The notes under the pieces: generated by a model
What the model was told of the DNA's origin: nothing
The model's database searches: none
The model's input: the letters and a program-made list of their open reading frames with translations, nothing else
Assembly: GCF_003610235.1 (NCBI RefSeq)
Contig: NZ_RAPR01000001.1
Span: forward strand, 310,001-374,000
DNA length: 64,000 bases
Direction: 5' to 3'
Source: Catellatospora citrea
GTDB taxonomy: Bacteria > Actinomycetota > Actinomycetes > Mycobacteriales > Micromonosporaceae
Part shown: piece by piece, positions 3,591 through 37,383 of the stretch
How the letters are laid out: the number at the start of each line of letters is the position of its first letter
Numbering within the stretch: position 1 is the stretch's first letter
Made by a program: the position numbers and the translations under genes

Positions 3591-3625
3591 CGGCCCACCT
3601 CACTTGCGGCTGCCTGACCTGAAGA

Positions 3626-7401: not shown

Positions 7402-10400
7402 GCGACTGGAGGATCTGGTGCGGCTGTCCACCGTCCGGGTCGTTGGAGGGCGGGCGGCAGGCGCGGGGTTCTTTGTGGGACCGGGAGCCGTGCTCACGTG
7501 CGAACATGTGGTAGCTGGCGGCGGCCCACTCATGGTCCGGTGGGACCGGGACCGTGAGGAAACCATTGAGGTTCCGGTCCTCGGAACGCCGATTGTCGTG
7601 CCCGGACGAGGACGCCCGATCCCGGCGCTGGACTGCGACTATCCGGATATTGCCGTTCTTCGGGTGGACGGCCTGCCGGATCATCCCTGCGTAATGCTCG
7701 AGGACGACTGGCCCGAACCAGGCGATACATTCCAGGTGTTTGGGTATCCGGCCGAGGGCGGGGCTACACTCCTGACTCCGGCACGGTTGATCTATCGCGG
7801 ACCGCACGGAACAGCGCCAGCCGTGTTCGTGGATCTGGGATCGGACACCATCAAGCCGGGGATGAGCGGTGCCGCGCTGTTGAACTTACGTACTGGTCAG
7901 GTCTGTGGCGTTGTCACGGCTTCCAAGCATTCAGACCGGCCCGACGGCGCGCTGGCTATACCATGGGCCGAAATCCGCGCAGAATTGCCAGACATCGCGG
8001 CGGCAAACCGGGACTTCCATCACCGCGACGGACGTTGGGAGAAGGCCCGCAGACTGGCGTCGGGTGCCGATGACGTGGCTGGTGTTCGCGCCGAGACGGC
8101 ACAGTCGCTGGGTGGCCTCGCAACCGCGACGAGGACGCTTCCCCGCGACGTCGCTTCGTTCACCGGCCGTGAGCGTGAACTCGAGTCACTCATGGACATC
8201 GCCCGTATCAGTACCACTGAGGGCGCGGTGGTCGGCGTCCACTCGATCGGGGGGATGGCCGGAGTCGGCAAGACAGCGTTCGTGGTACGGGCCGGCCACC
8301 TGATGTCTGGCATGTTTCCTGATGGGCAGATATTTCTCCAGTTGCACGGACACACGGCTGGTCAGCGGCCGGTGGATCCCGCCGATGCGCTGGCCAGTCT
8401 GTTGCAGACGGCGGGTCTGTCGGCGAAGGAGATTCCCACTGGCCTCGACATGCGCGCACGAATGTGGCGTGACTACCTGGCGGCACGCCGACTCCTCATC
8501 GTCCTGGACGATGCCATCGGCTACGACCAGGTCAGCCCACTTCTGCCCGGCACGGGTGAAAGCATGGTGCTGATAACCAGTCGTCGGCACCTGACAGCAC
8601 TGACCGACGCTCACGTCATCAATCTCGAAACTCTGCCGCCGCATGACGCGGCCCAACTATTCGCCAGGGTGGCTTCACGCACTGATCTGATGCTGGACGA
8701 GTCGGCCGTGATGCCGATCGTCGAAGCGGCCGGGTACCTGCCGCTCGCCATCAGCCTGCTCGCGTCGCAGCTACGGCACCATCCGACCTGGACTGCGACG
8801 GACCTTCTGGCTGACATACTCGCAGCGCGTAACCGTCTTGAGCTGATGGCGGCGGAGAATGTGTCCGTGACGGCGGCCCTTGAGCTGTCTTACCAAGATC
8901 TGACCGTCGAGCAAGGTCGCCTGTTCCGTCGCATCGGCATGCACCCCGGTACCGACCTCGACCGTTACGCGGCGGCGGCGCTAGACGCCGTCGATGTCTC
9001 GACAGCACGGCGACAACTCGAGGTCCTGTACGACTACAACCTGCTCACGCAGCCAGTACACGGCAGATTCCGCGCGCATGACCTCGTCCGTGAATACGCT
9101 CGTGGCTTGGCCGCCGCGGAGAACGCGGCCAAGGCGGAGGCCGCGGGAAAGCGCCTCTTGAGTTACTACCTCTACACCGCTCGACTCGCGGACACGTTCC
9201 TGGAGCGGCGCGCAGCGGCTGGCGTTCCCGAGGTTCAGATCGACCCGCCGCCGTGGGTTCCCGATATCCGCAGCACGCGGGCGGCCGGAGCGTGGATGAA
9301 CAACGAGATCGCAAACCTGTTTGCGGCTGCGGAACATGCCGCCCTCCACGGCTGGCCCGCGATCACCGTGGCGCTGTCGTCGTCCGTACATGGATTCCTC
9401 CGCGGGCGCAGCCAGCTCGACCAGGCCGCAGCCTTTCACAGTTCTGCCCTGCGCGCGGCCCACGACCTGGACGATCCGCTGGCCGAGGCCAGCATCCTGA
9501 CCGACTCTGGGGGCTTTCAACGTCTCTTCGGTGATCCGAACGGAGCAGTCGAGTGCCTACGCAGGGCAGTCGACATCTACAGGTCGGCCGGCGATGCTCT
9601 GGGGGAGGCTAACGCGCTGGACGAGTTGGCGGCATCGCAGGTGAGGATCGGTGAGTATGCGAACGCGTCCGACAACCTCACGCGGGCACAGGGCCTGTAC
9701 CGGGATCTCGGCGACAGACGTGGTGAGGCCCACGCTCTGAACCACCTTGGAGCGATGCAGGATGTAGTCGGTGATTACCATGCCGCCCTGGCGAGCCAGG
9801 ATAAGGCTTTGGCCCTGTACATCGATGTCGACTATCTCGTGGGAGCCGCTAACGCGGCCAACGAGCTGGGCTACGTACAACGGCTCATTGGTGACTACGG
9901 GGCGGCGGCCGCGAGCCAGGAACGGGCGATCGAACTTGCCCGCACGGCCGGTTTTCCCTCCGGAGAAGCCGATGCGCTAAGCGAGCTGGGCGCCGTGCAG
10001 ATCGCAACCGGGAACCTTACCCTGGCCGCAACCACTCTCGCACAAGCGTCTCGCCAATGCCGAAGCATCGGCTACCGTCGCGGTGAGGCCGCAGTACTGC
10101 TCAGCCTGGGCGCGGTGCAGTACACGCTCGGCGAACACGAGGAAGCCAGGGCCAACCTGTCTCGTGCGCTCAGGCTGTACCGCGATGCGCGAGACCGTCT
10201 AGGGGAAGCCAAGGCACTCAACGCCATCGGAGAGACGGCACTGCCCGATGAAGCTGTCGCTTCGCACCAGGAAGCGCTAACCCTAGCCACAGAAATCCGT
10301 TCGCCGGAGGAACGCGCCCGGGCACTAGAAGGACTTGCCACCCATCATCTCAACAGAAACGAACACGAGGAGGCCGAAGATTTATTGAAGCAGTCCCTCG

Positions 10401-10534
10401 CGTCATACCGTCAGACATCCTCGCCGCGCGTCCGGAACGTAGAGTCCCTTCTGTCGGAGCTAGAAGGCAGCCGATCAGTCGACAAACCACAACGCCCTGA
10501 CGGCACATTGCGACCCGACGGCACATCATCATGA
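7394..10534 (+). CDS. Trypsin-like protease - NB-ARC - TPR protein
   Basis: A 1046-residue protein. Residues about 10-200 are a trypsin-fold peptidase with triad His38 (TCEHVV), Asp85 (YPDIAVL) and Ser158 (GMSGAAL). A short linker leads to an NB-ARC STAND NTPase starting near 255 (FTGRERELESL), with Walker A GMAGVGKTA, Walker B LLIVLDDA and the GYLPLAI motif. A winged-helix-like segment follows, and from about 690 to 1020 there are seven or eight tetratricopeptide repeats, for example GEANALDELAASQVRIGEY. The ATG at 7394 was chosen because it overlaps the Trypco1 stop and because the protease domain begins just after it; the frame is open further upstream only as a shadow. By analogy with other NB-ARC-TPR switches, the repeats sense a signal and the protease acts as effector. 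Confidence 0.88.
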   Translation: MAERLEDLVRLSTVRVVGGRAAGAGFFVGPGAVLTCEHVVAGGGPLMVRWDRDREETIEVPVLGTPIVVPGRGRPIPALDCDYPDIAVLRVDGLPDHPCVMLEDDWPEPGDTFQVFGYPAEGGATLLTPARLIYRGPHGTAPAVFVDLGSDTIKPGMSGAALLNLRTGQVCGVVTASKHSDRPDGALAIPWAEIRAELPDIAAANRDFHHRDGRWEKARRLASGADDVAGVRAETAQSLGGLATATRTLPRDVASFTGRERELESLMDIARISTTEGAVVGVHSIGGMAGVGKTAFVVRAGHLMSGMFPDGQIFLQLHGHTAGQRPVDPADALASLLQTAGLSAKEIPTGLDMRARMWRDYLAARRLLIVLDDAIGYDQVSPLLPGTGESMVLITSRRHLTALTDAHVINLETLPPHDAAQLFARVASRTDLMLDESAVMPIVEAAGYLPLAISLLASQLRHHPTWTATDLLADILAARNRLELMAAENVSVTAALELSYQDLTVEQGRLFRRIGMHPGTDLDRYAAAALDAVDVSTARRQLEVLYDYNLLTQPVHGRFRAHDLVREYARGLAAAENAAKAEAAGKRLLSYYLYTARLADTFLERRAAAGVPEVQIDPPPWVPDIRSTRAAGAWMNNEIANLFAAAEHAALHGWPAITVALSSSVHGFLRGRSQLDQAAAFHSSALRAAHDLDDPLAEASILTDSGGFQRLFGDPNGAVECLRRAVDIYRSAGDALGEANALDELAASQVRIGEYANASDNLTRAQGLYRDLGDRRGEAHALNHLGAMQDVVGDYHAALASQDKALALYIDVDYLVGAANAANELGYVQRLIGDYGAAAASQERAIELARTAGFPSGEADALSELGAVQIATGNLTLAATTLAQASRQCRSIGYRRGEAAVLLSLGAVQYTLGEHEEARANLSRALRLYRDARDRLGEAKALNAIGETALPDEAVASHQEALTLATEIRSPEERARALEGLATHHLNRNEHEEAEDLLKQSLASYRQTSSPRVRNVESLLSELEGSRSVDKPQRPDGTLRPDGTSS

Positions 10535-10565: not shown

Positions 10566-11831
10566 TCACAAACTGCCCCAACGCGCCACATGATCGGCAA
10601 CCTTTCGGATACCGACTACATAGGCTTGTACGACGGCCTCGTCCTGCGCGAACGCCCAGACGGGGATCTTGATGATCTCCGCAGCGTACGCCCGGGCAAC
10701 TGGAAGGTTGGAGGGCGTTGACGCCGGCCGCCCGGTGACACGGCGCCTGCCCAGTACCTTCTCCGGCGCCGAAAACAGTGGTAGGTCGGCAATGACGCCC
10801 GTCGCGGCCGGCACGTCGACCTCGGACAGGCCCTCGGCCCGTAATGCCGCGACGAAGTCTTCGCGGGTCAACCGCCCCGCCGCACGGGCGTCGAAGCGCA
10901 ATGGTAGTGCGTACCAGCTGGGGATCATGCCGTCGATGTCGGGTAGGCGCAGGAACTCGTATTCGCGTAGCCCCTCGACCACCAACTGTGCAAATAGGCG
11001 CTTCTGGTGCAGGAAGGCATCGAGATGACCGAACTGCTCCAGCGCAATCGCTATGGCGAGTGGATGCGCACGCAGTTTGAGCCCGAGTCCGGTCTCGTGG
11101 TAGTTCCATAGCGGACTCGATCGAGATATCTCATCGCGGGTACGACGGTTGTAATGACCCTGTAGCACCGCGCGTTCGAAGATGCTTTCATCATCGGTCA
11201 GCAGAATGCCGCCTTCACCTCCGGACACAATCTTCTGACCCTGGAGGCTCCAAGCGGCAGCGGTGCCGATACTTCCCACAAGCGAACCGTGGAGCGTCGC
11301 GCCGTGTGCATGTGAGCAGTCTTCAAACAGATATATACCTTTCCGCGCACACTGCTCAGCGATCGCAAAGGTTTCGGTCGTCGGTAGGCCCCACAAGTGC
11401 GAGACGACGATTGCTTTGGTGTTCTCGCCGACCAGGGACATCGCCCACTCGGCCGACAGGCCACCTTGTTCGTCGATGTCGGCGAAGACGACGTCTGCGC
11501 CCATATACACGGCTGGACTTACTGATGCATGGAAGCCGTACGCAGGCGCGATGACCTGGTCACCTGGGCCGATCTGTATGCCTTCGAACATCGACATGAT
11601 GGCGGAGGTACCCGAATTGGACAGCAGCGAGTAGCGTCGAGCATGATATTGCGCAAAGGCGTCTTCAAATTCTCTGAACACTCCCGACCGGTCGCGAATG
11701 GACAAAGTTGTCGCGAGCTGCTGGATCACCGCCGCTTGCATCGACAATGTCGTCACAGGCCACTCGAATACGCCCATGCCTGGCTCCAGAACAGGCTTTC
11801 CGCCGTGAATCGCGAGTTTTTCCACAATCAT
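10566..11831 (-). CDS. DegT/DnrJ/EryC1/StrS family PLP-dependent aminotransferase
   Basis: A 421-residue fold-type I aminotransferase. The sequence IHGGKPV near the N-terminus, the PLP ring contact FEDCSHAHGA and the lysine in SLQGQKIVSGGEGG (the Schiff-base position in this family) are all present, so it looks active. Relatives put amino groups on keto-sugars, cyclitols or AHBA precursors; the substrate is not predictable here. Its start overlaps the stop of the upstream oxidoreductase gene (ATGA), so the two are translated together. A GGAGG site is too near the ATG at 11831 but well spaced for the GTG at 11825, which may be the true start. Codon use and lower GC set this pair apart from the neighbours and suggest transfer. 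Confidence 0.85.
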   Translation of the reverse strand: MIVEKLAIHGGKPVLEPGMGVFEWPVTTLSMQAAVIQQLATTLSIRDRSGVFREFEDAFAQYHARRYSLLSNSGTSAIMSMFEGIQIGPGDQVIAPAYGFHASVSPAVYMGADVVFADIDEQGGLSAEWAMSLVGENTKAIVVSHLWGLPTTETFAIAEQCARKGIYLFEDCSHAHGATLHGSLVGSIGTAAAWSLQGQKIVSGGEGGILLTDDESIFERAVLQGHYNRRTRDEISRSSPLWNYHETGLGLKLRAHPLAIAIALEQFGHLDAFLHQKRLFAQLVVEGLREYEFLRLPDIDGMIPSWYALPLRFDARAAGRLTREDFVAALRAEGLSEVDVPAATGVIADLPLFSAPEKVLGRRRVTGRPASTPSNLPVARAYAAEIIKIPVWAFAQDEAVVQAYVVGIRKVADHVARWGSL

Positions 11832-12895
11832 CCCTCCAACATGTGCATCGAGTCGTGCGGACTGGCTGGAGCGCCCATGCCCGCGGAGCGGTATGCCGCG
11901 TCTATGAACGCGATATGTTCGAGATAGGATGACGAGATGGTTCCGTTAATCGAGTCAGAACGTATGTTGAGAACAAAAGTGTTCAGCTGGTCCATCAGCG
12001 ACTGAGAACGCGAACCGCCGGGCGACAGACACTCCAGGACCGTGCCGTCAGGGCTCCTCAACTCGCATTGATCCCTGGTCACCCCGACTGACCCGGCCGT
12101 GCCGTAGATCTGCAGTGACTCGTCGTGGTATGGGTAGACTCTTGAAACGACGAGGCTTCCCATGACGTTGGTGCTCAGGTCGGCCGACTTGAAAGCGAAC
12201 TGGACAAAGGCCGTGTCCTCGGTGTCGTAATCTTGGCCGGGACGATTCCCGGCGGCCATTTGGCAGCTCACCAGGTCGGGCAGTCCCAAGTACCACACTA
12301 TGAGATCGACGTAGTGGTAACCGAGGTCAAGTAGGGCGCCGCCGCCCGCTTTCAGCTGGCTGGCGCGCCAGCCCTCGTCCAGGCGCTCCACATTCATCGT
12401 GTAGCGCGCCTCGACGGCATGAATCCGACTGATACGTGATAGGAGTCTTGAGAAGTTGACGTAAACCGGGTCGAAGCGTCTCTGAAGTGTCACCTGTAAG
12501 GATATTCCCGCACTGGAGACAATCTTCTTCAACTTTCTCGCCTCGTCCACCGACACCGCATATGGCTTTTCCTTGATGACATGGATGCGAGCGGCGGCCA
12601 GGCTCGACACTATCGAGAGGTATTCGCTGTGCGGTACGGCGACTAAGGCTGCTTCGGGCGGCATGGCAAGATTCTGGAGAAGTTCGTCGACATGTGATGC
12701 GAACGGGACGCGCAGCCTCATGCCTATCGTCCGGGCGAGTTCCAGATTGTCATCGACAACACCCGTCAGAGTCACGAGATCGTTCGCCAATATAGTTGGA
12801 ATGTGATGCTTGACGCTGCGATGTCCTAAGCCGACTATGATGATACGTAGAGGCGGGAAGCCTGTGACGAGTGGCCGACCGTGCCCGATAGACAT
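11828..12895 (-). CDS. Gfo/Idh/MocA family NAD(P)-dependent oxidoreductase
   Basis: About 355 residues. The Rossmann start IIIVGLGHRS, the AALVAVPHSEYL stretch and the conserved HVIKEKPYAVS (EKP motif with the catalytic-region lysine) identify the Gfo/Idh/MocA fold; the C-terminal part contains a GGGALLDLGYHYVDL motif typical of the family. Together with the coupled aminotransferase it probably carries out oxidation then transamination of a sugar or cyclitol. The frame is open to 13093, but the domain begins just after ATG 12895. That ATG has no ribosome-binding site; the sequence TATGCTATACATAAAT directly before it contains a -10-like hexamer, so the message may be leaderless. Substrate unknown. 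Confidence 0.82.
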   Translation of the reverse strand: MSIGHGRPLVTGFPPLRIIIVGLGHRSVKHHIPTILANDLVTLTGVVDDNLELARTIGMRLRVPFASHVDELLQNLAMPPEAALVAVPHSEYLSIVSSLAAARIHVIKEKPYAVSVDEARKLKKIVSSAGISLQVTLQRRFDPVYVNFSRLLSRISRIHAVEARYTMNVERLDEGWRASQLKAGGGALLDLGYHYVDLIVWYLGLPDLVSCQMAAGNRPGQDYDTEDTAFVQFAFKSADLSTNVMGSLVVSRVYPYHDESLQIYGTAGSVGVTRDQCELRSPDGTVLECLSPGGSRSQSLMDQLNTFVLNIRSDSINGTISSSYLEHIAFIDAAYRSAGMGAPASPHDSMHMLEG

Positions 12896-12899
12896 ATTT

Positions 12900-12912
12900 A
12901 TGTATAGCATAT
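12900..12912 (-). promoter_or_regulatory. Possible -10 element for a leaderless transcript
   Basis: On the minus strand TATGCT (TANNNT type) followed by TATACAT lies 6-13 bases before the chosen ATG at 12895, in an AT-rich island. No purine-rich ribosome site is present. This is the spacing seen for leaderless actinobacterial mRNAs, but no clear -35 was found. Confidence 0.3.
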
Positions 12913-13149
12913 GCGCGTTCCGAGCGAACACCATGCTTCTGCCGGTTGGTGCAATCGAGTCCATCCAGTGAAGGAATCCCGTGCCCGGCTTTCGGCAGGC
13001 CGACCTCGGCCTCATGGACCAGGCCCGAGGCGAGGTAAACGTAGCTACCGTTAAGCGCGCGCTGCAGAAGATACGTGACATAGGCGCGTACACTAGGGCG
13101 TGTTTCGTAATGTGCGCCGATCGGTCAGACGAGCATCCGTATTGGACTG

Positions 13150-16582: not shown

Positions 16583-16940
16583 AATGCTCCTGGTCGTTCT
16601 AGAACAGCAACGCCGATCACCGCGCTCGTCCTCATGATCAGCAAAGAGAACTACCACAGCAAGCCCTTTTACCCTGCACAGTCAGTCGGCCCCGACGAGC
16701 CGCATCGCACATCCGCTAGATCTCGATACGTGGCGCGCCCGCTGGCGCCTATGCGGGCCGCTCGTCAACTTTGACCAGCGGTCAAGAAGCGCTTCCAGCC
16801 AAGCGCACTTGACCAGCTGGTCCCAGGGCGCGAAAGAAGGCCAGGGCTGGCCGCCACCGACAGCACCTGCTTTGGTGGGTGAGGATAGGCCTCGTCGTCG
16901 AGACGGCATTGCCCATCCTCACCCACGCCGGCGAGCGGTG
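16583..16940. other. Intergenic region between giant gene and LRV gene
   Basis: A 358-base stretch that contains the terminator of the giant operon (16875-16926) and should contain the promoter of the LRV gene. I see no supported gene; open frames here have no recognisable protein features. Confidence 0.5.
16875..16926 (-). terminator. Strong hairpin terminator of the giant operon
   Basis: GTGGGTGAGGAT (16875-16886) pairs perfectly with ATCCTCACCCAC (16915-16926), and the stem extends inward with GGC/GCC after one unpaired base. It starts 15 bases after the stop codon of the giant gene. No T run follows, which is normal for actinobacterial terminators. Confidence 0.7.
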
Positions 16941-19900
16941 TCAGATCCGGCTCGCCAGTGAGTCGAGCTCTTCCTTGAACTGCGCGGGTATCTGACGCAG
17001 CGGCGGGAGCAGAGTCATCGGCCACCGAGCAACGATGTGCCGTTTGAGCTGATTCGACACCATTGTCAGGTGGGCGGGTAGAAGTGTGTCAACCGCGATC
17101 AGCTGATCATCTCGCGGAGTCAGGCTTCTGGACAGGGTGCCCAGCTCGGCTAGGTTGGGCGCGTCGGCCAGCAGGTCGGTGGCATCCTGTAGCGCGCCTG
17201 CCGCCGCGAGCACGGCCCGCATCAGCGGTGCACGGCTGTCGGGCGCTCCTTGGACCACGGGACGAGCTAGGACCGCTTGTCCGAATCTCACCACGTCGAG
17301 CCAGCTGGTCACGGTCAACTCAGCGGCCAGTGGCAGTGCCCGCACCCGGGCCCAAATCCCGGTCCTGGGCAGTTCCTCGGCCGGGCGCAGCCACTGGTCG
17401 AGTAGCGGTTCGACATGCAGGGACCGCAACGCCCGTCGGCCGAGCTGATGCGCGGCGAACACGCTCAGCCTGGCGGCGGCTGGGTTGGTCCGGCCGGTCG
17501 TGGCGAGGACGACGATCGCTGCGAGGTGCTCGGTGAGATCGAGCTCGCCGGCACCGGCCAGCGCGGGCAGCCGGGCGTCCAGCCAGGACCGTAGCGCCGG
17601 TTCGGTGGGCATCGGGTCTGCCCGCAGCGCCGAGCCCGCTGCTCTGAGGACGGCCTCGGGGATGCCGGACCAGGTGTCTTGCAGCCCTTCGCGGAACCAA
17701 TCGCCGTAGTCACCGAAGTGGTCGGGCAGTGCCACGGCAGCGCCGAGCGCGGCGGTCGGCAGCTGTTGCCCAACCCACGCTGGCAGGTCGAGGCGGACCT
17801 TGCGTGCGCCGGCCTGCACCGCCTCGACTGCGGGCTGGCCGCCTGTGGTTGTCACGGATCGTACTTCGGCGATGATCTCGTCGCCTTCCGCGATGTCCCC
17901 ATCGTGCAGGACGGTGAGCAGGACGTCGACGAACTTGACTCGGGCGATGTAGCGCGCGGTGGTGCCGAGGTCGGAGGTCCGGCCGACGATCACCACTGGC
18001 AGCTGGGCACCGACTGCCATGGTGCCGAAGGCCCGCTGAACGTCCTGATCGGCGGTGAACGACACCGCTCCGTTCGGTTGCCTGCGGCATCTGATGGTCC
18101 GTTCGGTGCCGAGGGCCTGGGCGAGTTCGGCGATCGGCAGGTCGGGGATCCAGCTGGCTTGGTCGGCGGGCATGAAGCACAGCGACTCGGTCGTGCTGTC
18201 GCTGCAGACGATGCCGCCAGGGTCGCCGTCGCGGGCTGCGACGCCCAGCAGTGGGCGGACGTGGGCCTCGGTGTCTATGGCATTTTCGGCTACGGGCAGG
18301 CCGGTGTGCACTGTTCGCGCCTTATCGGTGTGCCACCAGAGTTCGAGCTGTTGCCGTTGCGTCGCCAGCGCGGCCGCGACCGCACGGCTGTTGCCGCCGG
18401 CGACGACCCGGTCCAGCGAGATGCGGCGAAGTGCGTGGCCGCAGCGTACGACCAGTGTTCCGTCCTCGAGGTCGGCAGCGATCTCGGCGCGTACGACACG
18501 TTCGGCCGGCCAGACGCCGGTGGGTTGCAGACGGCGGGAGATGCCGACGGCGTCGGTGTCGGCGTGCTCGACGGTGACCGGAATTGCACCGCCGAGTTGT
18601 GCGATCAGGTTCTGGCGGCCGGTGCGGTCGGAGAGCACGTCATGCAGCCAGTCGAGGCCTGGCCAGCCGACCTGGCTGCGGGGGGTTAGCACGGCCGGGC
18701 GACGGGTGCCGTGGATGTACAGGTCGCCGTCGCTGTTCACGCCGAGTAGTGCGACGTCACCTGGCGTCATGGCACGTTCGGCGAGTGGGACCAGCTGGTT
18801 GTGAGGGCTGAGCCAGACCGCCGTGCGTGTGGCGTGCTCGTCGACGCGGCTTGTGGCGATCGGGTGGCGTATGGTGCAGCGGCCTTCTCCCAGCAGTAGC
18901 GCGCCGCCGGGTTGTGGGTGGCCGACGGGGAGCACGATCGATGACGTCGGTGCGCTCGCGCCGCGTATGCCGTGGTCCACGCCGAGCAGTTCGAGGCTGA
19001 GGTAGTCGTCGGGTGCGATCGCGTCGACTCGTACGCGGATCCGGTCACCAGGGGCGAAGATCGACCAGTCGAATGCCATGCCTGCCAGCGACCGGCCGAA
19101 CTTGACCAGGCTTGCCGGCACTTCGATCACTCGTCCCGGGCTCAGCTCGAGCCAGAGACCGTCCGGCTGATTGGCCACCGTGCGCACGGCGGCGACGGTG
19201 AGCCAAGTGGGCTGGCCGAGAAGCTGTGGCTGCTCGAGCAGTTCGGTGGCGGGTAGTCCGTAGCGCAGGAGATCGGATCCGCGGAACAGAGCGGTGGGTC
19301 CGATGTCGTCGCGGGTCAGGAACAGCGGCCCGGTGACGGCGCTCATGGGTTGAACGCTGTACTGCTGAGGGGTGTCGGCGTCGAGGGCCCAGTGCCCGGT
19401 CTTGCTGTCGTGGTAGCGCCAGTGTGCTGTGCGGCAGGCGTCGGCGATCTCGGCTGCGCTCGATGCGGTGAAGGACAGCCGGGCCCATTCGACGTGCTGG
19501 GTTGCCGCGTCGGCTGAGCTGATCGGGATGACCAGTGCGGGCTGGTCGTGGTCGCTGACGTCGACAGTGACTGCCAGCAGGTCGTCGCCGGCGGGTCGGA
19601 TGATGACGTCGTCGCCGTCGCGGGTGGCGATGGCGAATCTCGGATGGGGCGCCGCCAGTAGTTGCCGTCCGTGGGCCGTACGGGCTTCCAGTGATGGCAG
19701 GCCGGCGATGGTGAACAGGCGGCGGTCGCGCCGGGCGGCAAGGTCCCGGCCGTCGGTTCGCAGAAGGGGAGTCTTGGGCAGTGCCACCACCGGACGTCCC
19801 GCCGGGGCGATGTATCGCGATTCAGCGGGCATGGCGAGGTCGGCTTGGATGCGGCTCGTCGCGGTGTCCAGGGTCAGCCGGACCTGGGCTCCGCGGTCGA

Positions 19901-22900
19901 TGCCGCGTCCGACGGCGGCCTTTGGCAGGTCGAAGAACACGCCCGTGCGCACCTCGACCTTTCGCCCGCCGTAGGTCGCAAAGCACGCTCCACGCTGCTG
20001 GCGTAGGTAGCTTCGTAGATCTTCGACGGGACGGGCGGGCGCTTCGACGATCGAGCCATGCCATTGTGTCGGGCCGGTCGGCGACTGCAGTTTCACCAGC
20101 AACCCCAGCCGACCGGCCAGTGCACGGGTTCCGCCTGCGGCGAGGGTTCGGCGCAGCAGGTCCTGGCGGTAGGAGAACTCGCGCCGCATGATGGCGATCT
20201 CGAACGGGCGGCGGCGGACTGCGTCGATGGTGCGCTCGGGTAGGTGGAAGGTGATGAGCGCGTCGTTGCCCAGGTCGGTGATCTCACCGGCGGTGGCGTA
20301 GAGGAGGTCGCCAACCTTGAGCGCGTTCTCGCCGGGTAGGCCGGCTTCCAATGGAATGTAGGTGAACTCCCGGATACGGCCGTTGCGATTGGTTCGCGGG
20401 TCGACGGCCAACCTGGCCAGGATCTGCGTGGATTCCGGATTCACGCGGCGCTGCCGGGCCGCAGCGATAAGCGGTTTGACAGAATCCTGGTTGAGCGTCG
20501 CCTGGATCCTGGCGCTGTAGATCTGGTCGTGCGGGCGCTCCGCGGACAGGCCCTGGCGTGCCGTGTAGACCCGTAGCACGGTCACGACTTCAGCGTCGAC
20601 GTCGATGGCCACCTCGACCTGGTGCACGACACCCGACGCGGCTTCGCGGATCACCTGCCCTTCGATCCGCGGGTGGATGTCGTTGCGGCTGAGGTGGACG
20701 GTCGTGACGGCGCCGTCGCGTTCGAACCGGAACGCCGAGACCATGTCGCCGTGGAACAGGGCCGCCTGGCCCTCGAGGCGAAGTTGGGTGCTGGGCACGT
20801 CCACGGTCCAGCCCCGGCCCCATTCGAATCGGTGGACGGATGCGCCGTTGTCCTGCTCCTCGCCGACGTAGTAGACATTGCGCTCGGGCCGGTGGCGGCG
20901 ACGGTCCCCGACGCGGGCAGTGCGGAACGCGGTATCGACGAACGCGTCGACCGTCAGTGGGGTCACGTCCTGGTAGGTGCCGGCGATCGCACCGCCGTGC
21001 TCGACGACCCGTACCCGTGTTCTCCCCTTGTAGTCGCGGTCCACCTGCGTCTGCTCAGCGCGGATCAGGGCGAGGTAGGGCACCCAGTCACCGAACGGAC
21101 CGGGAGCCAACAGGCCGTGGTCGAGCAGCAGCCGCTCCCCCCGTTTGTCGCCGGTCAGGTGCCCCTCGCCCGCCTGCAGAGCCTCGGCCCAGCGTGCGCG
21201 GTTGGCAGCGTCCGGGTCCGGCGGCGCTGCGGGTTGGGACGTCTGCGTCGACGCCGCGGCGAGGACGAACTCGCGCCGGGCGATGATGAGGTCGTCATCC
21301 ACCTGGGTCAACCGCAGCGACACCCGCCGCAGCCGCACGCTGTCGGCGACCGTGTCGGTCAGCGCGTCACCGACCATCGTGTCGTGGCCGACGTGCACTC
21401 TGAGCCGGGTGTAGGACATGCCGCGATATCCGACGTACGGCCGACCGAGACGGGCGACCGTGACCGACCTGCCGTCTCCACCGGCCGTCCGGGGCTGCGA
21501 CTCGGCTGCCAGCCACGGCCTGTCGGGGTGCTGGTAGACGGGGTAATGCTGGCCGTACTGCGTATTCGTGCCGACCTCGACCCAGGAGTCCTCACGGGGG
21601 TGCCGGATGTCGAAAAGGGCGTTGACGTCGATGACCCGGTGTTGCACCTGGAAGATCCAACCCTGGTCGTCCCTGCAGACCGTCACTTTGTCGCCCGGCT
21701 TGCAGTCGTCGACGTCGAAGTGTGCCGCGTCGATGACCAGGTGCCGCACCTGGCCGTCCATCAGCAGCCAGATGCCATGCTGGACCGCCTTATGGCGCGC
21801 GTTGGTGCCCACGGTCACCACCATCGCGGCGAAGGTGTCGTGGCCGATCAACTCGGTGGTGAGCTGCCGCGACAGGTCCGATTCGGGTAGCGGCTGTGGG
21901 GTGCGGACCGTCTTGGGCGGGACCACCCGGTCCATGCGAACCACCAGCGGCCGGTTCTCGACGAGCCCCTGGGTCCGGCCGGGCTTGCTGGCGACCAGCG
22001 TCAGGGATTCCGTGGCGACCTGGACTTCGATCTTGTCGGTCGTGACGCCGCGCACGAATGCACCGCGCCAGCCGCCTGGCCGTAGCGAGCGCAGCGTGCA
22101 GATCGAGTCCTTGGGCAGGTGGTATAGCCGGTCCCAGCGTACCCGGCTGGGCATGTCCGGCAGATCGATGCCTTCGCTGCGTAGCGGCTCCACCGTCAGC
22201 CGCGCGAGCCGGGCCTCAGGCTCGCCCCACGCCGTGACCGTGCAGGCCACCTGGTCGCCAAGATGTGTGCCGAGGCCGGTCACCATCAGAGCCGGGGGGC
22301 TGCCGGGCGGACCGTCGACGGTGATCTTCCAGTCATCTTCCTCGCGGTGGGCGACGACGTCGACGTCGTCGGAGAACATACGCAACCACGCGACGTTACT
22401 GTCGTCGATCGGCTGGTCGCCGTCGAGACTCAGGCGGCCGCCGCTGAGCAGCACATGAACCGCAAGCCCGATCATGTCATCGGACAGGTGGTGGGCCAGT
22501 TCCCTTCTGCTGTCGTCGCTCCAGTCCGTCCGGTCCAGGCGGTACACGGTGCCGGGCGCACCGGCAAACCGCCACGCATCGCCGTCGACACCCACGAAGA
22601 CGAGCCGGGCCCGGGTCTCCTGCGCCGTCGTCATGTCGAGCAGCAGCTCGTCCATGGTGCGGTCGGCGGGCAGCCAACCCTGGAGGTTGGCGCTCCACTG
22701 CGCGACCGTTTCATAGGTCATCGGCTCGCGCGCGCGGAGCAGGTCTGGATCCCAGCGCATGCGCACCGCGCTGTCGGCCGGCGACGTGCCTGACGGGTAC
22801 GTCTCGGCTCCCTCGACCCTGACGCTGAGCATCGGAAAGGTCGCCGTCGTCGTGACGGTGGCGGTCCGGCGTTCACCGCCGCGGGGGTCGACTCGTTCGA

Positions 22901-25898
22901 GCGGGCGCGGACGACCGGTCACCTCGCGTCGGCCGTCCCTGACCACGGTCTGCACGGCGACCGCAGTGCCGGGTGCGGGGTGCGGGGTGCCCGGCTCCGG
23001 TCGCCAGCAGACGAAACCGCGAGATCCGCAGTTGATCCACACTTCCACGTCCCAGCCTGACGGCTGGGCCGCCGTCACCACGCCGAAGTCGTAGCCGCCC
23101 TCCCCGGCCGTGCCCGCCTGGCCGGCGAGGAACGGATCGGCGACGCGCTCGATCACCGCGCCGTGCGGCGACCGCACCGCCAGATCGACATCCTGGACGT
23201 ACCAGAGCTCGTTGCCGACATAGTCACCGGCCATCGCGGCCATGGCAAGGCGCTCGTGCCGCCACGGCAGCTCGGTCGGGCTGTCCACGCGTGCCGAGGG
23301 CTGAACGGCAAGCTCAGGGGAGATCTTGTCCGCGGACCATTGACGGCTCAGGATCGCACCGAGGCGCGTGCCCTGGGCTACGACCGGGGAGCGGGCAACC
23401 GACGCCAGCATGCGCCGCCGCGCCGTCGTCGTCACCGACCGCGACTCGGCGTCGACTTTGAGCGCGTACGGGTTGCGTGGTTTCAGGTCGGCCAGTACGT
23501 TGTGGCGCCTGCGCAGCGTGCTGATCATTCGCAGGCGCAGGTCGTTCGTGGCGTCTACGCCCAGCGTCAGGTCCGTGGCGAGGGTGTCGAACAGGCGGTG
23601 GTAGTAGCGCGGTGCGGAGCCACTGAAGTCGATGATCGAATCGACGATCACCTCCGCCGCCCCGGCGACCCGCGCCCGCGAGCCGGCCCCTTCCACCCGG
23701 GCACGCAGCAGTTTGATGAGGCGCGGGCGCAGCGCACGCGGAACGTCCTTGGCGGCACTCAAGCCCGACATGAACTCCAGCCAATGCCGCACCCAGCGAT
23801 CATGGGCACCGGCATCGCCGAGTGCCGGGTCGGCCAGGACCTGCTCCAGCAGCAGCAACAGGTGGGTCACCTTGGCCGACGGGAACAGCCACGCATCTAT
23901 CCGCTGGTCGACGTCCTCCCACCGATCGATGCTGTACGCGGGTGCCATGAGCAAGCGCTGCCAGTCCAAGACCGCGCCCTTGCGCTTGTGGTGGTCCAGG
24001 ACCCGCCGGTGCTCCTTCTCGATCGCGCGCACGTTGCTCATCCAGTCTTCGTGCGCCGTGCGCTGGCCGACCTCATGTTCGTAGATCTCCAGCGCCACGC
24101 GGCGTGGATGCCATCGGAACATGCGCACGTCGTGGCTCATGGCCGCACGCAGGATGCGCAGCGCCGGAGCGTCATCGGCGTCGGGGAACCAGCGGCCGCT
24201 CAAGCGCGGATCGGCGGGATCGACACCTGCGGAATAGGAGTTGTACAGCCACGTGACCGCGGAATTGAGCGCCGCGTGCGCGAACAGGTTGTGCCATTGC
24301 GCGACGCGGCCCGCTGTCGCACCGCTGTCGCCGGGCCCGCCACACAGGAAATCGGCGACCCGTGCCGGCGAGAACTCCGCGTACCCGCCGCCGCCCAGCC
24401 GCCGCACCTGGTCTGCGGCGTACTTGAGCAGCAGTTGAACACCCAGGCCGAAGGCAGCAGGCGGGGTGGCCGACCTGTCGTCGACGGCGCTCTCGAGCTG
24501 GCTGGTCCTGCTGATGACGTCCGCGGTGTGCAACACCACGGCCATCAGGTGCTCGTACTCCTCCTGCGGGTCGGCTGGGTCGGGCAGCGAACGCAGCAGG
24601 CGGACCGCGATCGCGGCACCGGCGGCCATCCGCACCAGGTCGGCTGGCTCCTCCCACGCCGGGTAGAGTGCGTCCGCCCCCTTGGGCGGCAACTCAGCAC
24701 CGAGCCGGTACAGCCACGGTGCCGCGATCAACGGCCACACCCTCGCCTGGGTCGTGTCCAGCGGACCGTCCCCCAGCTCGACTGTGATCTTCCGGCCAGT
24801 CTCGCGCAGCGAGATCGCCGCGCACAGGTAGTCCCACGCGCGACCCCAGTCCTGCCGATTGACGGGCGCGGTCACCTGCACTTTCTTGAGCGAGGTCGTC
24901 TCCTCGGGCACCGCCCACCAGCGAGCCAGCAACGCGGCGGCGCTTCGGCAGTCACGCTGCGCGGCCAGCGACCACAGCGTCATCTGCCACAGCACCACCG
25001 ACATGGCCGGATGCGGCTCAACGTCGGCGAGAGCACCCAGGCGGGTGTGTGCGTCGCGGCGTACAGCGGTGCGAGGATCGACGTTGCCCCGCCAGGTCCA
25101 GCCCCTGACCCCGGTCGCGATCTCCTGTTCCAACGCCGACATGTCGCACGGTCGGCTGCCTGTCGCCTCACCGAAGGTCACCCGGGCGAACGCCGCGAGC
25201 AGATCCGGCTCGAGATCGGCCGCGCCGTTGCCGAAACGGCGCAGGTCCTCCCCCAGCTCGGCGATGGTCGAGGGCTCGGTGGCCAGTACAGCCGACAGCC
25301 GGACCGCCAGCGTGAACGCCAACCGCCCGTGCTGACCGCCACGAGCCTGGCTCAGCAGCGGCAGCTCGCCCTGTGTACCCGCGCAGATCTGCTCGGCCAG
25401 GCCCTGCTCGCGCATCGACAGTTCGAACAGCAACGCCACGCCAACCGTCGCAGCCACGTGCCAGGCCAGATCGTGGTAAGGCTCACCGCGCGCGACAGTC
25501 GTCTCGAACTCGAACGTCTCCGCCAGTTCGCGTAGTCGATCGGCCAGGTCCGTAGGCGAGTCCTGCACCGCCTCCAACGCCGCCCCACACAGATCGCGCT
25601 CGATCTTCAGCCTGGTCAAGGACGCGATCTCCTGGAAGTACGTACCACATTCGGCCGCGACCTGCGCGTCCAAAACATGCCTGCGCTGCGCCGCCAGCAC
25701 CCGGGGCAGGGCGTACAGCAGCAACGCCGGTTCGACCCGGCGCAGCTGCCGAAGGGCCTCGCCGACCAGCTCGGCGCCGGCAGGATCGGCACCGGTGTCA
25801 CGAACGGGCTCGTCGAGGGCGGCGAGGATGTCCAGGTACGTGTCAGCGTTCCTGAGGGTCATCCGCATTGCCGAGCAGAAGTACCAGTCGTCGAGCAC
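16941..25898 (-). CDS. Giant protein of unknown family (about 2985 aa), partner of trypsin-like protease
   Basis: I do not recognise this family. No signal peptide, membrane segment, Walker motif or catalytic signature is visible. Three zones can be seen: an alpha-helical N-terminal part of about 800 residues; a very long beta-rich middle (about 810-2600) with repeated short motifs of the form hydrophobic-GD-hydrophobic-strand, such as KPGDKVTVCRDDQGWIFQV, KVGDLLYATAGEI, APGDRIRVRVDAI and AEGDEIIAEVRSV, which recall S1-like OB folds; and a helical C-terminal part of about 300 residues. The GTG at 25898 is preceded by AGGAG and lies 8 bases after the protease stop; GTG at 25904 is an alternative. 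Third gene of the Trypco1-protease-giant operon, closed by a hairpin. A nucleic-acid-binding scaffold or sensor is a guess from the OB-like motifs and the context. Confidence 0.7.
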   Translation of the reverse strand: MLDDWYFCSAMRMTLRNADTYLDILAALDEPVRDTGADPAGAELVGEALRQLRRVEPALLLYALPRVLAAQRRHVLDAQVAAECGTYFQEIASLTRLKIERDLCGAALEAVQDSPTDLADRLRELAETFEFETTVARGEPYHDLAWHVAATVGVALLFELSMREQGLAEQICAGTQGELPLLSQARGGQHGRLAFTLAVRLSAVLATEPSTIAELGEDLRRFGNGAADLEPDLLAAFARVTFGEATGSRPCDMSALEQEIATGVRGWTWRGNVDPRTAVRRDAHTRLGALADVEPHPAMSVVLWQMTLWSLAAQRDCRSAAALLARWWAVPEETTSLKKVQVTAPVNRQDWGRAWDYLCAAISLRETGRKITVELGDGPLDTTQARVWPLIAAPWLYRLGAELPPKGADALYPAWEEPADLVRMAAGAAIAVRLLRSLPDPADPQEEYEHLMAVVLHTADVISRTSQLESAVDDRSATPPAAFGLGVQLLLKYAADQVRRLGGGGYAEFSPARVADFLCGGPGDSGATAGRVAQWHNLFAHAALNSAVTWLYNSYSAGVDPADPRLSGRWFPDADDAPALRILRAAMSHDVRMFRWHPRRVALEIYEHEVGQRTAHEDWMSNVRAIEKEHRRVLDHHKRKGAVLDWQRLLMAPAYSIDRWEDVDQRIDAWLFPSAKVTHLLLLLEQVLADPALGDAGAHDRWVRHWLEFMSGLSAAKDVPRALRPRLIKLLRARVEGAGSRARVAGAAEVIVDSIIDFSGSAPRYYHRLFDTLATDLTLGVDATNDLRLRMISTLRRRHNVLADLKPRNPYALKVDAESRSVTTTARRRMLASVARSPVVAQGTRLGAILSRQWSADKISPELAVQPSARVDSPTELPWRHERLAMAAMAGDYVGNELWYVQDVDLAVRSPHGAVIERVADPFLAGQAGTAGEGGYDFGVVTAAQPSGWDVEVWINCGSRGFVCWRPEPGTPHPAPGTAVAVQTVVRDGRREVTGRPRPLERVDPRGGERRTATVTTTATFPMLSVRVEGAETYPSGTSPADSAVRMRWDPDLLRAREPMTYETVAQWSANLQGWLPADRTMDELLLDMTTAQETRARLVFVGVDGDAWRFAGAPGTVYRLDRTDWSDDSRRELAHHLSDDMIGLAVHVLLSGGRLSLDGDQPIDDSNVAWLRMFSDDVDVVAHREEDDWKITVDGPPGSPPALMVTGLGTHLGDQVACTVTAWGEPEARLARLTVEPLRSEGIDLPDMPSRVRWDRLYHLPKDSICTLRSLRPGGWRGAFVRGVTTDKIEVQVATESLTLVASKPGRTQGLVENRPLVVRMDRVVPPKTVRTPQPLPESDLSRQLTTELIGHDTFAAMVVTVGTNARHKAVQHGIWLLMDGQVRHLVIDAAHFDVDDCKPGDKVTVCRDDQGWIFQVQHRVIDVNALFDIRHPREDSWVEVGTNTQYGQHYPVYQHPDRPWLAAESQPRTAGGDGRSVTVARLGRPYVGYRGMSYTRLRVHVGHDTMVGDALTDTVADSVRLRRVSLRLTQVDDDLIIARREFVLAAASTQTSQPAAPPDPDAANRARWAEALQAGEGHLTGDKRGERLLLDHGLLAPGPFGDWVPYLALIRAEQTQVDRDYKGRTRVRVVEHGGAIAGTYQDVTPLTVDAFVDTAFRTARVGDRRRHRPERNVYYVGEEQDNGASVHRFEWGRGWTVDVPSTQLRLEGQAALFHGDMVSAFRFERDGAVTTVHLSRNDIHPRIEGQVIREAASGVVHQVEVAIDVDAEVVTVLRVYTARQGLSAERPHDQIYSARIQATLNQDSVKPLIAAARQRRVNPESTQILARLAVDPRTNRNGRIREFTYIPLEAGLPGENALKVGDLLYATAGEITDLGNDALITFHLPERTIDAVRRRPFEIAIMRREFSYRQDLLRRTLAAGGTRALAGRLGLLVKLQSPTGPTQWHGSIVEAPARPVEDLRSYLRQQRGACFATYGGRKVEVRTGVFFDLPKAAVGRGIDRGAQVRLTLDTATSRIQADLAMPAESRYIAPAGRPVVALPKTPLLRTDGRDLAARRDRRLFTIAGLPSLEARTAHGRQLLAAPHPRFAIATRDGDDVIIRPAGDDLLAVTVDVSDHDQPALVIPISSADAATQHVEWARLSFTASSAAEIADACRTAHWRYHDSKTGHWALDADTPQQYSVQPMSAVTGPLFLTRDDIGPTALFRGSDLLRYGLPATELLEQPQLLGQPTWLTVAAVRTVANQPDGLWLELSPGRVIEVPASLVKFGRSLAGMAFDWSIFAPGDRIRVRVDAIAPDDYLSLELLGVDHGIRGASAPTSSIVLPVGHPQPGGALLLGEGRCTIRHPIATSRVDEHATRTAVWLSPHNQLVPLAERAMTPGDVALLGVNSDGDLYIHGTRRPAVLTPRSQVGWPGLDWLHDVLSDRTGRQNLIAQLGGAIPVTVEHADTDAVGISRRLQPTGVWPAERVVRAEIAADLEDGTLVVRCGHALRRISLDRVVAGGNSRAVAAALATQRQQLELWWHTDKARTVHTGLPVAENAIDTEAHVRPLLGVAARDGDPGGIVCSDSTTESLCFMPADQASWIPDLPIAELAQALGTERTIRCRRQPNGAVSFTADQDVQRAFGTMAVGAQLPVVIVGRTSDLGTTARYIARVKFVDVLLTVLHDGDIAEGDEIIAEVRSVTTTGGQPAVEAVQAGARKVRLDLPAWVGQQLPTAALGAAVALPDHFGDYGDWFREGLQDTWSGIPEAVLRAAGSALRADPMPTEPALRSWLDARLPALAGAGELDLTEHLAAIVVLATTGRTNPAAARLSVFAAHQLGRRALRSLHVEPLLDQWLRPAEELPRTGIWARVRALPLAAELTVTSWLDVVRFGQAVLARPVVQGAPDSRAPLMRAVLAAAGALQDATDLLADAPNLAELGTLSRSLTPRDDQLIAVDTLLPAHLTMVSNQLKRHIVARWPMTLLPPLRQIPAQFKEELDSLASRI

Positions 25899-25906
25899 GG
25901 TCACTC

Positions 25907-27946
25907 CTAGGGGCGTGGTTCCAGCGGGGGCAGGTCGGGCATAAAGGCGCGGCAGTGGTCGTCGAACACGTCGTCGCCGGGATCACCGGGCAGGTTCAGC
26001 CGGCGCAGCAAAGCGTCCAAAAGCGTGTCGGGCACTGTCGCGAGCCAGGCGGCCGTCTGCGGTGTCACGCGCCGCCTGCCGACGACAGACCAGCACGCTG
26101 GGCTGGCGAAGGCCTGAGGCAGGCCGTGCGGAACCATGTCACCGACGATGCAGGCCCGCTCCGCCGCCGTGGCGAAGGCAGCGCTGGCCCGGCGCAGCGT
26201 GTCGGCGAGCAAGTCCCCACCACGCCACTGATCGGCGATCTGACGCACGATGGTCGAGGTGTAGGGCTGCCAGGCCGCGACGGCCGCTTCTGAACGGCCC
26301 CGCCGGATGAGCCCGAGCACCACCGCATCGATCGTATCGGCATCCAGCAGCGCCAGATACTCGGTAGCCGGGTCGCCATCGGCTGCCGCCAGCCATCGGT
26401 CGACCTGGCTGTCACGGCGGGCTGCCGCCCGAAGGGACGCGCACCGTCCCGGATACCGTCGGTTGCGAGCGTGCTCGGCCATGATGGCGGGCGCGAACTC
26501 CGGCAAGAAGTCCTGAATCGCCATCAGCAACGTCGTCTCGCCGTCCAGGTCGTCAGCACCGGCGTTCAGCTCGGCCACGAAGTCCTCGGCCGCGAGGAAC
26601 GGGTCGGCCTGAGCCGGCAGCGCTTCAGCTGTCACGACCCCCACGCGACGGTGCGGATACCGCCGCTGCCGGGTGCGTAACAGCGACGTGAGCGCACCGA
26701 GCACCGAGCCCGCCGAGACCTCCAACCCCTGCCTCTCACCATCGTCACCGTCGACGAGGGCAGGCCGTACCAGCACCTCCGATGCGCCCACCCGCCGCGC
26801 GACGCCAGCCGCCGCGTCCATGACCTCGATCGGCCCTACTCCGTACACGTTCACGACCACCGGTGCCTGCGGGAACACCGATGCCAACGCGTGCACGTAA
26901 CGCTCCGCGTCCGCCTCGTCGTTCCTAACCGGCCACGGCACCACGAAGCCCGGCCAGCTGCCGAACTCGTCCACGCGGTCGAAACGCGAGTCGTTCACCC
27001 TGGCCCGGATGTCAGTCGCGCCGCTCGGTGGCAGTCCGTGAGCGGCGAGGGTGAACCAGGGCCGCGGCGCGCGCAGCGGGGTCAGCGACCGTTCCACGAC
27101 GTTGAGGTGAAGCGCGAGGTCCGGTTCGGGCACCCCGGCCACGACGGTCACGGATCGTCCGCGGGCCAGGCCCACGCGCACGTCCAGCGTTGTACGGTAC
27201 CGATCGCTGATCGGCGGGGGCTGACGGGCGCCGCGTGCTTCCCATCGGGCGTCGAGACGGTAGACCTCCAGGTTCGTCGGTGCGTCGACTGTCGGAGTCA
27301 GCACCGGCGCGTGAACCTGGACCGAACGCGCCAGCAGCTGCGAAACCTCCATCAGCTCATGCATCGGAGTCGCGTAGATCGTCATGCCCGCCACGCGGCT
27401 CGGGTCCTCCCGTGACACCATGCGACGACGGATGATGCCGAACACCAGGTTCTCCGGATGACCGAGCAGGACAGGTGCGCCGCTGAATCCCTCCAGCATC
27501 ATGTCCGCGGTGGCCTGGCCGCACAGCAACTGGACGCACGGGGCACCGTCGCCGAGCTGGCTCGGTGGCCCGGCCACCGAGCCGGTCAGATTCGTCGGGT
27601 AGCGTGATCGCACCTGGCCTGGGAAGCCCTGGCTCCAGAACGCCGCTCCGTTGTCCCCGACGCCTCCGACCAGCAACGGCACGAGCTCATCGGGTAGCGG
27701 TTGCTCAAGCCGGAGCAGAGCCACGTCCAGATACTCGTGTGACTCGACAAGCGTGGCCGCCAAGCCCGGCAGATCACTGTGCAGCAGAACCGCCTGCTGG
27801 TGGTGCCCGTCCCTCGTCTTCAGGCAGTGCAGAGCGGTGATCGCCAACGTACGGGAAACAGCGAATGCGGTTCCGATGATGCCGGCGGCGGACTGTGCCT
27901 CAGGATCCACTGACAGTCCGAAGATCGCCGGCGATCTGTTCGGCAT
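25907..27946 (-). CDS. Trypsin-like serine protease with C-terminal extension of unknown family
   Basis: A 679-residue protein. Residues about 15-210 form a trypsin-fold peptidase with a readable triad His40 (TALHCL), Asp74 (YLDVALL) and Ser155 (EGFSGAPV). The remaining 470 residues are mixed alpha/beta then helical (for example TIDAVVLGLIRRGRSEAAVAAW) and match nothing I know; no P-loop NTPase motif is seen, unlike in the other two protease genes of this window. The ATG at 27946 overlaps the Trypco1 stop by one base (TAATG), so translation is coupled; the longer open frame to 28072 is only overlap with that gene. The giant gene follows after a few bases. Probable effector or processing enzyme of this three-gene system; the substrate, possibly the giant protein, is unknown. 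Confidence 0.82.
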   Translation of the reverse strand: MPNRSPAIFGLSVDPEAQSAAGIIGTAFAVSRTLAITALHCLKTRDGHHQQAVLLHSDLPGLAATLVESHEYLDVALLRLEQPLPDELVPLLVGGVGDNGAAFWSQGFPGQVRSRYPTNLTGSVAGPPSQLGDGAPCVQLLCGQATADMMLEGFSGAPVLLGHPENLVFGIIRRRMVSREDPSRVAGMTIYATPMHELMEVSQLLARSVQVHAPVLTPTVDAPTNLEVYRLDARWEARGARQPPPISDRYRTTLDVRVGLARGRSVTVVAGVPEPDLALHLNVVERSLTPLRAPRPWFTLAAHGLPPSGATDIRARVNDSRFDRVDEFGSWPGFVVPWPVRNDEADAERYVHALASVFPQAPVVVNVYGVGPIEVMDAAAGVARRVGASEVLVRPALVDGDDGERQGLEVSAGSVLGALTSLLRTRQRRYPHRRVGVVTAEALPAQADPFLAAEDFVAELNAGADDLDGETTLLMAIQDFLPEFAPAIMAEHARNRRYPGRCASLRAAARRDSQVDRWLAAADGDPATEYLALLDADTIDAVVLGLIRRGRSEAAVAAWQPYTSTIVRQIADQWRGGDLLADTLRRASAAFATAAERACIVGDMVPHGLPQAFASPACWSVVGRRRVTPQTAAWLATVPDTLLDALLRRLNLPGDPGDDVFDDHCRAFMPDLPPLEPRP

Positions 27947-28266
27947 TAACCCGCCCGCGACCACGTCAGGCAGACCTCGAACCCCGCCGACGTGGCGGCT
28001 CGCGAGACGATGACCCCAGCCTCCGCCTCCAGATCGATCGAGAACGTGACCTGCGCCTGCGACAACACCCACGGCGGCTTCGCCGCGGAATGGCCTGTGA
28101 CGGGAGGATCATCAGCGGCAATACGCTCGCCCAGACGGCGGGCCATTGTCACGATGGAGTCGCCGAGTTCGTTGACGCGATCGAGCATCTTTTCGACCAA
28201 CGGTCCACTCGACAGATCCCCGGTCCACCCCTCCGCAGGTACGACCCGAACATGAATATCTGTCAT
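27946..28266 (-). CDS. Trypco1-like (trypsin-co-occurring) small protein
   Basis: A 106-residue protein and the first gene of the giant operon. The C-terminal part, with SQAQVTFSIDLEAEAGVIV and the terminal FEVCLTWSR, has the same strand pattern as the Trypco1-like protein at 6961-7401 and ends in the same W motif. The start has a GAGG-containing leader. The stop overlaps the protease start by one base. It also lacks membrane segments. The repeated pairing of this family with trypsin-fold proteases, here with two differently built partners, supports a direct functional link; the biochemical role is unknown. Confidence 0.7.
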   Translation of the reverse strand: MTDIHVRVVPAEGWTGDLSSGPLVEKMLDRVNELGDSIVTMARRLGERIAADDPPVTGHSAAKPPWVLSQAQVTFSIDLEAEAGVIVSRAATSAGFEVCLTWSRAG

Positions 28267-37193: not shown

Positions 37194-37383
37194 GTCGGCG
37201 GCACTCCTCTCCCTGCGGTTGTACGTTCAGGCGGCAGCGGACTCATCGGTGGCGCGTTTTGGTGCGCTGTCGGGGAGTGCCGCCCCCGGCACCAAGGAAT
37301 GGGGTCCATCCGGGTTCGCAGGTCGGCGGCGGCTGCACTGGATGAGGGTGTCCTGTCCGCCAGACACGGACACCCCTGGCACC

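Follow-up and report, generated by a model that had tools for sequence, protein, structure and literature searches.

Among the conflict systems described in bacteria, the VMAP systems are among the closest to the locus considered here, and in the portion of PMC7159879 consulted they are described as having trypsin together with Trypco, and caspase together with an alpha/beta hydrolase. The locus lies on the minus strand of a 64,000-nucleotide stretch of the Catellatospora citrea genome (9.3 Mb, 4 contigs; contig NZ_RAPR01000001.1, positions 310,001 to 374,000), hereafter the window, and carries genes coding for a Trypco1 protein, for a trypsin-fold peptidase whose C-terminal part we call the coupler, and for a giant protein. 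From the sequence of the window, an original prediction had proposed that these three genes form one unit and belong to a conflict or defence system. As far as that portion of PMC7159879 goes, VMAP systems, which are common in actinobacteria, resemble the locus in that the N-terminal peptidase can be exchanged and the domain following it is constant, and their accessory pairing is found here as well, trypsin going with Trypco1 and a caspase-like version with an alpha/beta-hydrolase gene. They differ in that the coupler carries no VMAP-C match, that the flanks examined hold no MoxR-type motif, that the partner is a giant of 2.9-3.3 kilo-residues with S1/OB folds, and that CHAT is the commonest peptidase. 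CHAT is a member of the wider caspase superfamily. For this reason PMC7159879 may count CHAT as caspase. The conserved unit is the pair of coupler-protein and giant; the inputs to it are interchangeable, trypsin with Trypco1 being one of several. We give an even chance to the locus being one version of a modular conflict system of actinomycetes with two core genes, composed of a sensing giant, a coupler and a plug-in peptidase.

Giants were compared at 17 loci with surrounding DNA (window, L005-L009, the plasmids L016 and L017, L023, L024 and L034-L040), among which L006/L040, L035/L036 and L038/L039 are close relatives, the giants of L016 and L017 differ at one residue and that of L039 runs off its contig. 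At all 17 loci the gene directly 5' of the giant lies on the same strand, at a distance of -4 to 213 bp, and its 3' part encodes the coupler domain of about 450 amino acids. The whole peptidase-coupler gene of the window (679 amino acids) is an open reading frame (ORF) at 25907..27946 on the minus strand, and its C-terminal 472 amino acids (25910..27325) were delimited as the coupler by blastp and profile matches and by alignment. Pairwise blastp related the window coupler to those of L006 (E 1e-23), L009 (8e-8), L005 (5e-7), L008 (1e-6) and, only weakly, L007 (0.005-0.055), and a coupler profile built from these six loci recovered the other eleven with E-values from 4e-143 to 5e-21, in two stretches in L023 and L037-L039. 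The coupler gave no match in Pfam, no Walker A motif was seen in it, and its AlphaFold model (pLDDT 75.7) gave no Foldseek match at E < 0.001. A sequence search of the protease-coupler against PDB returned nothing.

The part that precedes the coupler varies. The N-terminus is CHAT in 12 of the 17 coupler-proteins (eleven through Pfam over the cut-off, and L017 through its record annotation, the protein being the same as that of L016), caspase-like with an alpha/beta-hydrolase gene in three (L006, L009 and L040), trypsin with Trypco1 in one, and without a fused enzyme in one. The caspase-like assignment is based on a GHG...DAC/DVC motif, identified by eye, and on an overlapping or preceding alpha/beta-hydrolase gene in each case; with Pfam, L009 gave E 0.02, below cut-off, and L006 and L040 gave nothing. 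The alpha/beta hydrolases of L006 and L009 fell short of the cut-off of 26.3 bits, with scores of 25.5-25.6, and that of L040 was recognised by its likeness to L006. By regular expression or by eye, His and Cys motifs were found in 12/12 CHAT and 3/3 caspase-like versions. A hydrolase-looking ORF of L037 (3772-4491) does not adjoin the coupler gene.

Two arrangements add further genes to the pair. In the CHAT clade formed by L005, L016/L017 and L034-L037, an extra divergent gene of about 715 amino acids, located beside the CHAT-coupler gene (L005 506-2653, minus strand), is conserved with 43-49% identity to the L005 copy; of the two copies scanned, that of L005 matched CHAT over the cut-off and that of L016 just below it, and a sequence search of this second CHAT protein against PDB gave nothing. 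The CHAT-coupler and the divergent CHAT gene could possibly constitute a two-protease cascade. In L023, the coupler without fused enzyme (4175-5728, plus strand) adjoins a PNP_UDP_1 gene (2788-4053, plus strand; E 3.6e-18), and both have in common a short glycine-rich GNVNT-type motif with a score of 68 that 0 of 300 shuffles reach. This motif may be a recruitment signal of the amyloid-like or EAD-like type. On a tree of 16 giants, in which L009 and L023 have long branches, the CHAT label requires at least three changes and the caspase label at least two, and the window giant groups with L006/L040 (98/99) despite their different peptidases. The varied N-termini and these label changes suggest that the effector slot has been swapped on a constant chassis.

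The giant of the window (2985 amino acids; 16941..25898, minus strand, with an alternative start at 25904; database protein P0004) was retrieved with relatives by one sequence search (6 proteins, own included) and by a ten-sequence profile search (25, own included). An alignment of 35 sequences, five genome loci and some near-duplicates among them, contains giants of 2936-3345 amino acids that are 22-36% identical to the window giant (own entry excepted), and 77 of its columns are conserved in all 35 rows or in all but one; because this full-length family keeps it, the reading frame is more than a product of chance. The named sources are Streptomyces, Micromonospora, Saccharothrix, Amycolatopsis, Nucisporomicrobium and Nocardia. 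The absence of recognised domains claimed by the original prediction is correct by sequence: Pfam gave nothing convincing among the giants scanned (the best S1-type match had E 0.43 and came from a single member out of 10), NCBIfam nothing for the window giant, PADLOC nothing for the window and L009 giants, and the giant profile nothing convincing against PDB sequences (one ribosomal chain at E 0.87). It does not extend to the structure of the modelled C-terminal third, where S1/OB barrel folds are present. The AlphaFold model of the last 1101 amino acids (16944..20246, minus strand; pLDDT 88.7, pTM 0.77) consists of beta-rich modules followed by a helical end, with an S1/OB-fold module at residues 2623-2699 (17802..18032, minus strand) and a second, S1/OB-like module at residues 2537-2617 (18048..18290, minus strand). 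The top Foldseek match of this model is p204 HINab, HIN-type DNA sensors and S1 proteins are among the best, and structure matches place in the giant S1-type folds such as those of RNase R, NusA and ribosomal protein S1. The modelled folds of the giant point to nucleic-acid binding.

The three genes of the window are tightly packed minus-strand ORFs, which confirms that Trypco1, peptidase-coupler and giant form one operon, as originally proposed. The Trypco1 gene (106 amino acids; 27946..28266, minus strand) matches PF19493 with 34.4 bits against a cut-off of 24.6 and overlaps the trypsin-fold gene, the predicted linkage of Trypco1 and protease being borne out. The trypsin-fold domain (residues 1-207; 27326..27946, minus strand) was placed by PF13365 (Trypsin_2), at 25.8 bits just below the cut-off of 27.6 (E 2.1e-5), and by the triad positions; His40, Asp74 and Ser155 were found in order by a residue check, and the triad is intact as described. 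The overlap of one base is seen in TAATG, where the stop of Trypco1 runs into the ATG of the protease, and the gap of about 8 bases also holds, the distance from protease stop to giant start being 8 bases if the start is GTG 25898 and 2 bases if it is GTG 25904; the former is favoured since P0004 and the relatives start there. The hairpin that was thought to close the operon exists as an inverted repeat (16875..16926, no strand assigned) located 14, and not 15, bases past the giant stop, with arms of 25 nucleotides (16875-16899 and 16902-16926) that are 80% complementary and, by reading, perfect in their outer 12 pairs. It has no T-run and is therefore not a classical intrinsic terminator, a role rejected also because terminator-like sites in the region do not exceed those of shuffles (2 against a mean of 2.9). 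PADLOC gave weak matches to the Avs1b, LmuA and RT-protease models, all within the trypsin domain and none outside the peptidase; Avs1b (AVAST type 1) was rejected at 15.9 bits against an NCBIfam equivalog cut-off of 1500.

The distribution of the pair is sporadic. In a Streptomyces-genus sample of 392 genomes around Streptomyces spiralis, the giant profile found 8 genomes and the coupler profile exactly the same 8. The giant was found in 2/396 genomes of a phylum sample (own and one weak partial), 3/397 of an order sample (own included) and 4/299 of a family sample around the Nucisporomicrobium genome, and the full-length protease-coupler (P0002) in its own genome only among 101 genomes, 10 of them of the same genus, next to one other weak partial. 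These two weak partial matches were not used, that of the giant, with a stop, in genome G279 (E 2.9e-5) and that of the coupler in genome G026 (E 4.9e-4). Among 72,556 plasmids the giant occurs on two linear Streptomyces plasmids (L016 and L017), and tblastn with the window peptidase-coupler recovered the same two records only, the match falling in the CHAT gene that neighbours the giant. A putative T7SS-secreted protein (T7SS, type VII secretion system), an SseB-family gene and hypothetical genes lie near one plasmid copy (L016 2586-8415; NZ_CP108566.1). Several giant copies sit on megabase contigs. A viral origin was rejected, as no relative was confirmed in IMG/VR and no phage record encodes the giant. 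The sporadic distribution and the two linear plasmids fit an accessory system.

The folds of the giant, the death-type peptidases on the coupler, the VMAP-like partner genes and the trypsin-STAND neighbours described below lead us to propose a sensor-scaffold, an adaptor and an executor acting in conflict or self-sacrifice. The giant would be a sensing scaffold whose S1/OB modules bind foreign or abnormal nucleic acid, or nucleoprotein, and the coupler would tie the peptidase to the giant and hold it off. Binding of the trigger would alter the giant-coupler complex and free the peptidase (here trypsin assisted by Trypco1), which would then cut host or invader proteins and cause growth stop or cell death. 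We infer nucleic-acid binding, the contact between coupler and giant, activation, targets and the defence role. The conflict-type setting assumed by the original prediction is found here, with two further trypsin-STAND genes in the window, and the defence role that it suggested is still putative. Several points weigh against our proposal. Defence, binding and activation are deduced here from genes and models; the structure model covers the C-terminal third of the giant, its whole-model TM-scores are low, and hhalign of 150-residue windows gave internal repeats with a best probability of 45%, too weak from sequence. OB/S1 folds bind proteins or sugars as well. The peptidase labels need 4 changes overall on the giant tree, and equally few are obtained in 29 of 200 shuffles; of the ten ORFs scanned in the two flanks, most are ordinary genes; and the large genome samples scored 4-6 candidates per genome, so that absences in them are not proof. 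Finally, the exact trio of Trypco1, trypsin and giant, whose recurrence elsewhere had been put forward as a check, occurs once only (in the window) among the loci examined; what does co-occur elsewhere is the core pair of coupler-protein and giant, and on this point the original prediction is not refuted as far as tested.

Another explanation would see in the locus a disguised ternary system of the MoxR/vWA type (VMAP, iSTAND or iSTAND2), in which the coupler would be a divergent inactive STAND and the giant would replace, or work with, a distant MoxR-vWA pair. A possible degenerate NTPase-like domain behind a peptidase would be shared with iSTAND and iSTAND2, for which trypsin versions are known (PMC7159879, PMC8195603, both as excerpted). 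A Pfam scan of 15 couplers gave no VMAP-C match, even with E-values up to 5 admitted, and hhalign of the coupler with 13 VMAP-C sequences (of 20 loci tried) gave a probability of 2%. The VMAP-C model itself works, since 12 of the 14 giant-holding genomes searched have a match at other sites (11 over the cut-off); none was found in the window genome, in a search in which no control gave a hit. Identity with a VMAP system is thus rejected as far as tested. In flanks of 0-12 kb per side (at nine of the 17 loci neither side reached 7 kb), no MoxR-type P-loop gene was seen at the motif level; P-loop matches outside the pair occur in L006, L007 and the window only, those of the window being the trypsin-STAND genes, and one vWA-like match in L035 is probably due to chance. 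No MoxR or vWA was present among 20 window ORFs scanned with Pfam, and plasmid L016 has a vWA gene some 13 kb past its giant, beyond the range examined. We consider such a disguised ternary system unlikely. A 775-amino acid ORF of L006 with the P-loop GPGGVGKT (21834-24161, minus strand), about 3 kb past the giant, is perhaps another STAND gene. The EACC1 two-gene system (PMC7159879), characterised by an EACC1 domain with a TM segment in its 5' gene, likewise has two genes, a swappable part and a caspase-type peptidase, but there it is mostly the caspase that stays constant and the domains following it that change, whereas here the peptidase varies and coupler and giant are constant.

The same modular system could also respond to a protein or an internal stress signal, with the OB folds serving as a protein-binding scaffold and with developmental or stress-induced death, rather than phage defence, as the output. 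OB folds are versatile, the named hosts are actinomycetes, many of them hyphal, and the several giant copies on megabase contigs and the lack of the giant in phage records or IMG/VR are in keeping with such a trigger; a very patchy distribution and plasmid copies would be odd for development, and the best structural matches of the giant are nucleic-acid-binding proteins. This explanation seems to us less probable than a conflict system, and still the most credible of those competing with it. A regulatory machine linked to nucleic acids or translation, in which the giant would act on RNA or ribosomes and the peptidase would trim partner proteins outside any conflict, would account for S1-type folds such as those of RNase R, NusA and ribosomal protein S1. 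It is rather improbable given that other members of the genus do not share the system (P0002 being full-length in its own genome only) and that death-type peptidases swap; moreover, a match of the giant to a housekeeping family, which would have contradicted the original prediction, was not found in Pfam or NCBIfam, as far as tested.

The window holds two more trypsin-STAND genes (3626-10534), located about 6-13 kb beyond the 3' end of the giant, one of them with its own Trypco1. At 6892-10534 on the plus strand, a second Trypco1 gene (PF19493, 40 bits) is followed by an overlapping ORF for a trypsin-NB-ARC-TPR protein of 1143 amino acids, a STAND-type conflict pair, and 3626-6487 on the minus strand encodes a trypsin-NACHT-HEAT protein of 953 amino acids (NACHT E 2.8e-9; Trypsin_2 below cut-off, E 3.3e-4). 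Two further Trypco1 genes elsewhere in the genome (G000:C2:12577-12867 and G000:C1:3194553-3194849) bring the number to four in all. Genes coding for a DegT aminotransferase and a GFO/IDH/MocA oxidoreductase (10566-13093, minus strand), with a guanine-plus-cytosine content of 0.589 compared with 0.678 for the window, are perhaps recently acquired sugar genes. Adjoining GGDEF (with GAF) and EAL genes (35634-38391, minus strand) form a possible cyclic-di-GMP pair.

In its boldest form, which we hold to be less likely than not, our proposal of a modular conflict system would make the locus a categorically new bacterial innate-immune machine without recognisable nucleoside triphosphate (NTP)-binding motifs, in which a sensor of about 3000 residues made of an OB/S1 array, functionally HIN-like, would act by way of a degenerate NTPase-like adaptor on a plug-in enzyme, either a death protease (trypsin, CHAT or caspase-like) or one producing a nucleotide signal, each peptidase having its own partner gene. 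The animal HIN-domain DNA sensors (p204/IFI16-type), one of which is the top structural match of the giant model, have tandem OB folds in common with it; there is no sequence relation and the whole-model scores are low, which makes the comparison an analogy only. The OB-fold sensors of animals bring about the activation of caspases, as in the link between AIM2 and caspase-1. If our proposal is right, it would add to the known conflict systems a conserved chassis, coupler and giant, that no Pfam model named here, and would mean that a peptidase passing from one chassis to an unrelated one takes its Trypco1 or alpha/beta-hydrolase partner along. It would also suggest a parallel with animals, in that bacteria too may link nucleic-acid sensors made of tandem OB folds to death proteases.
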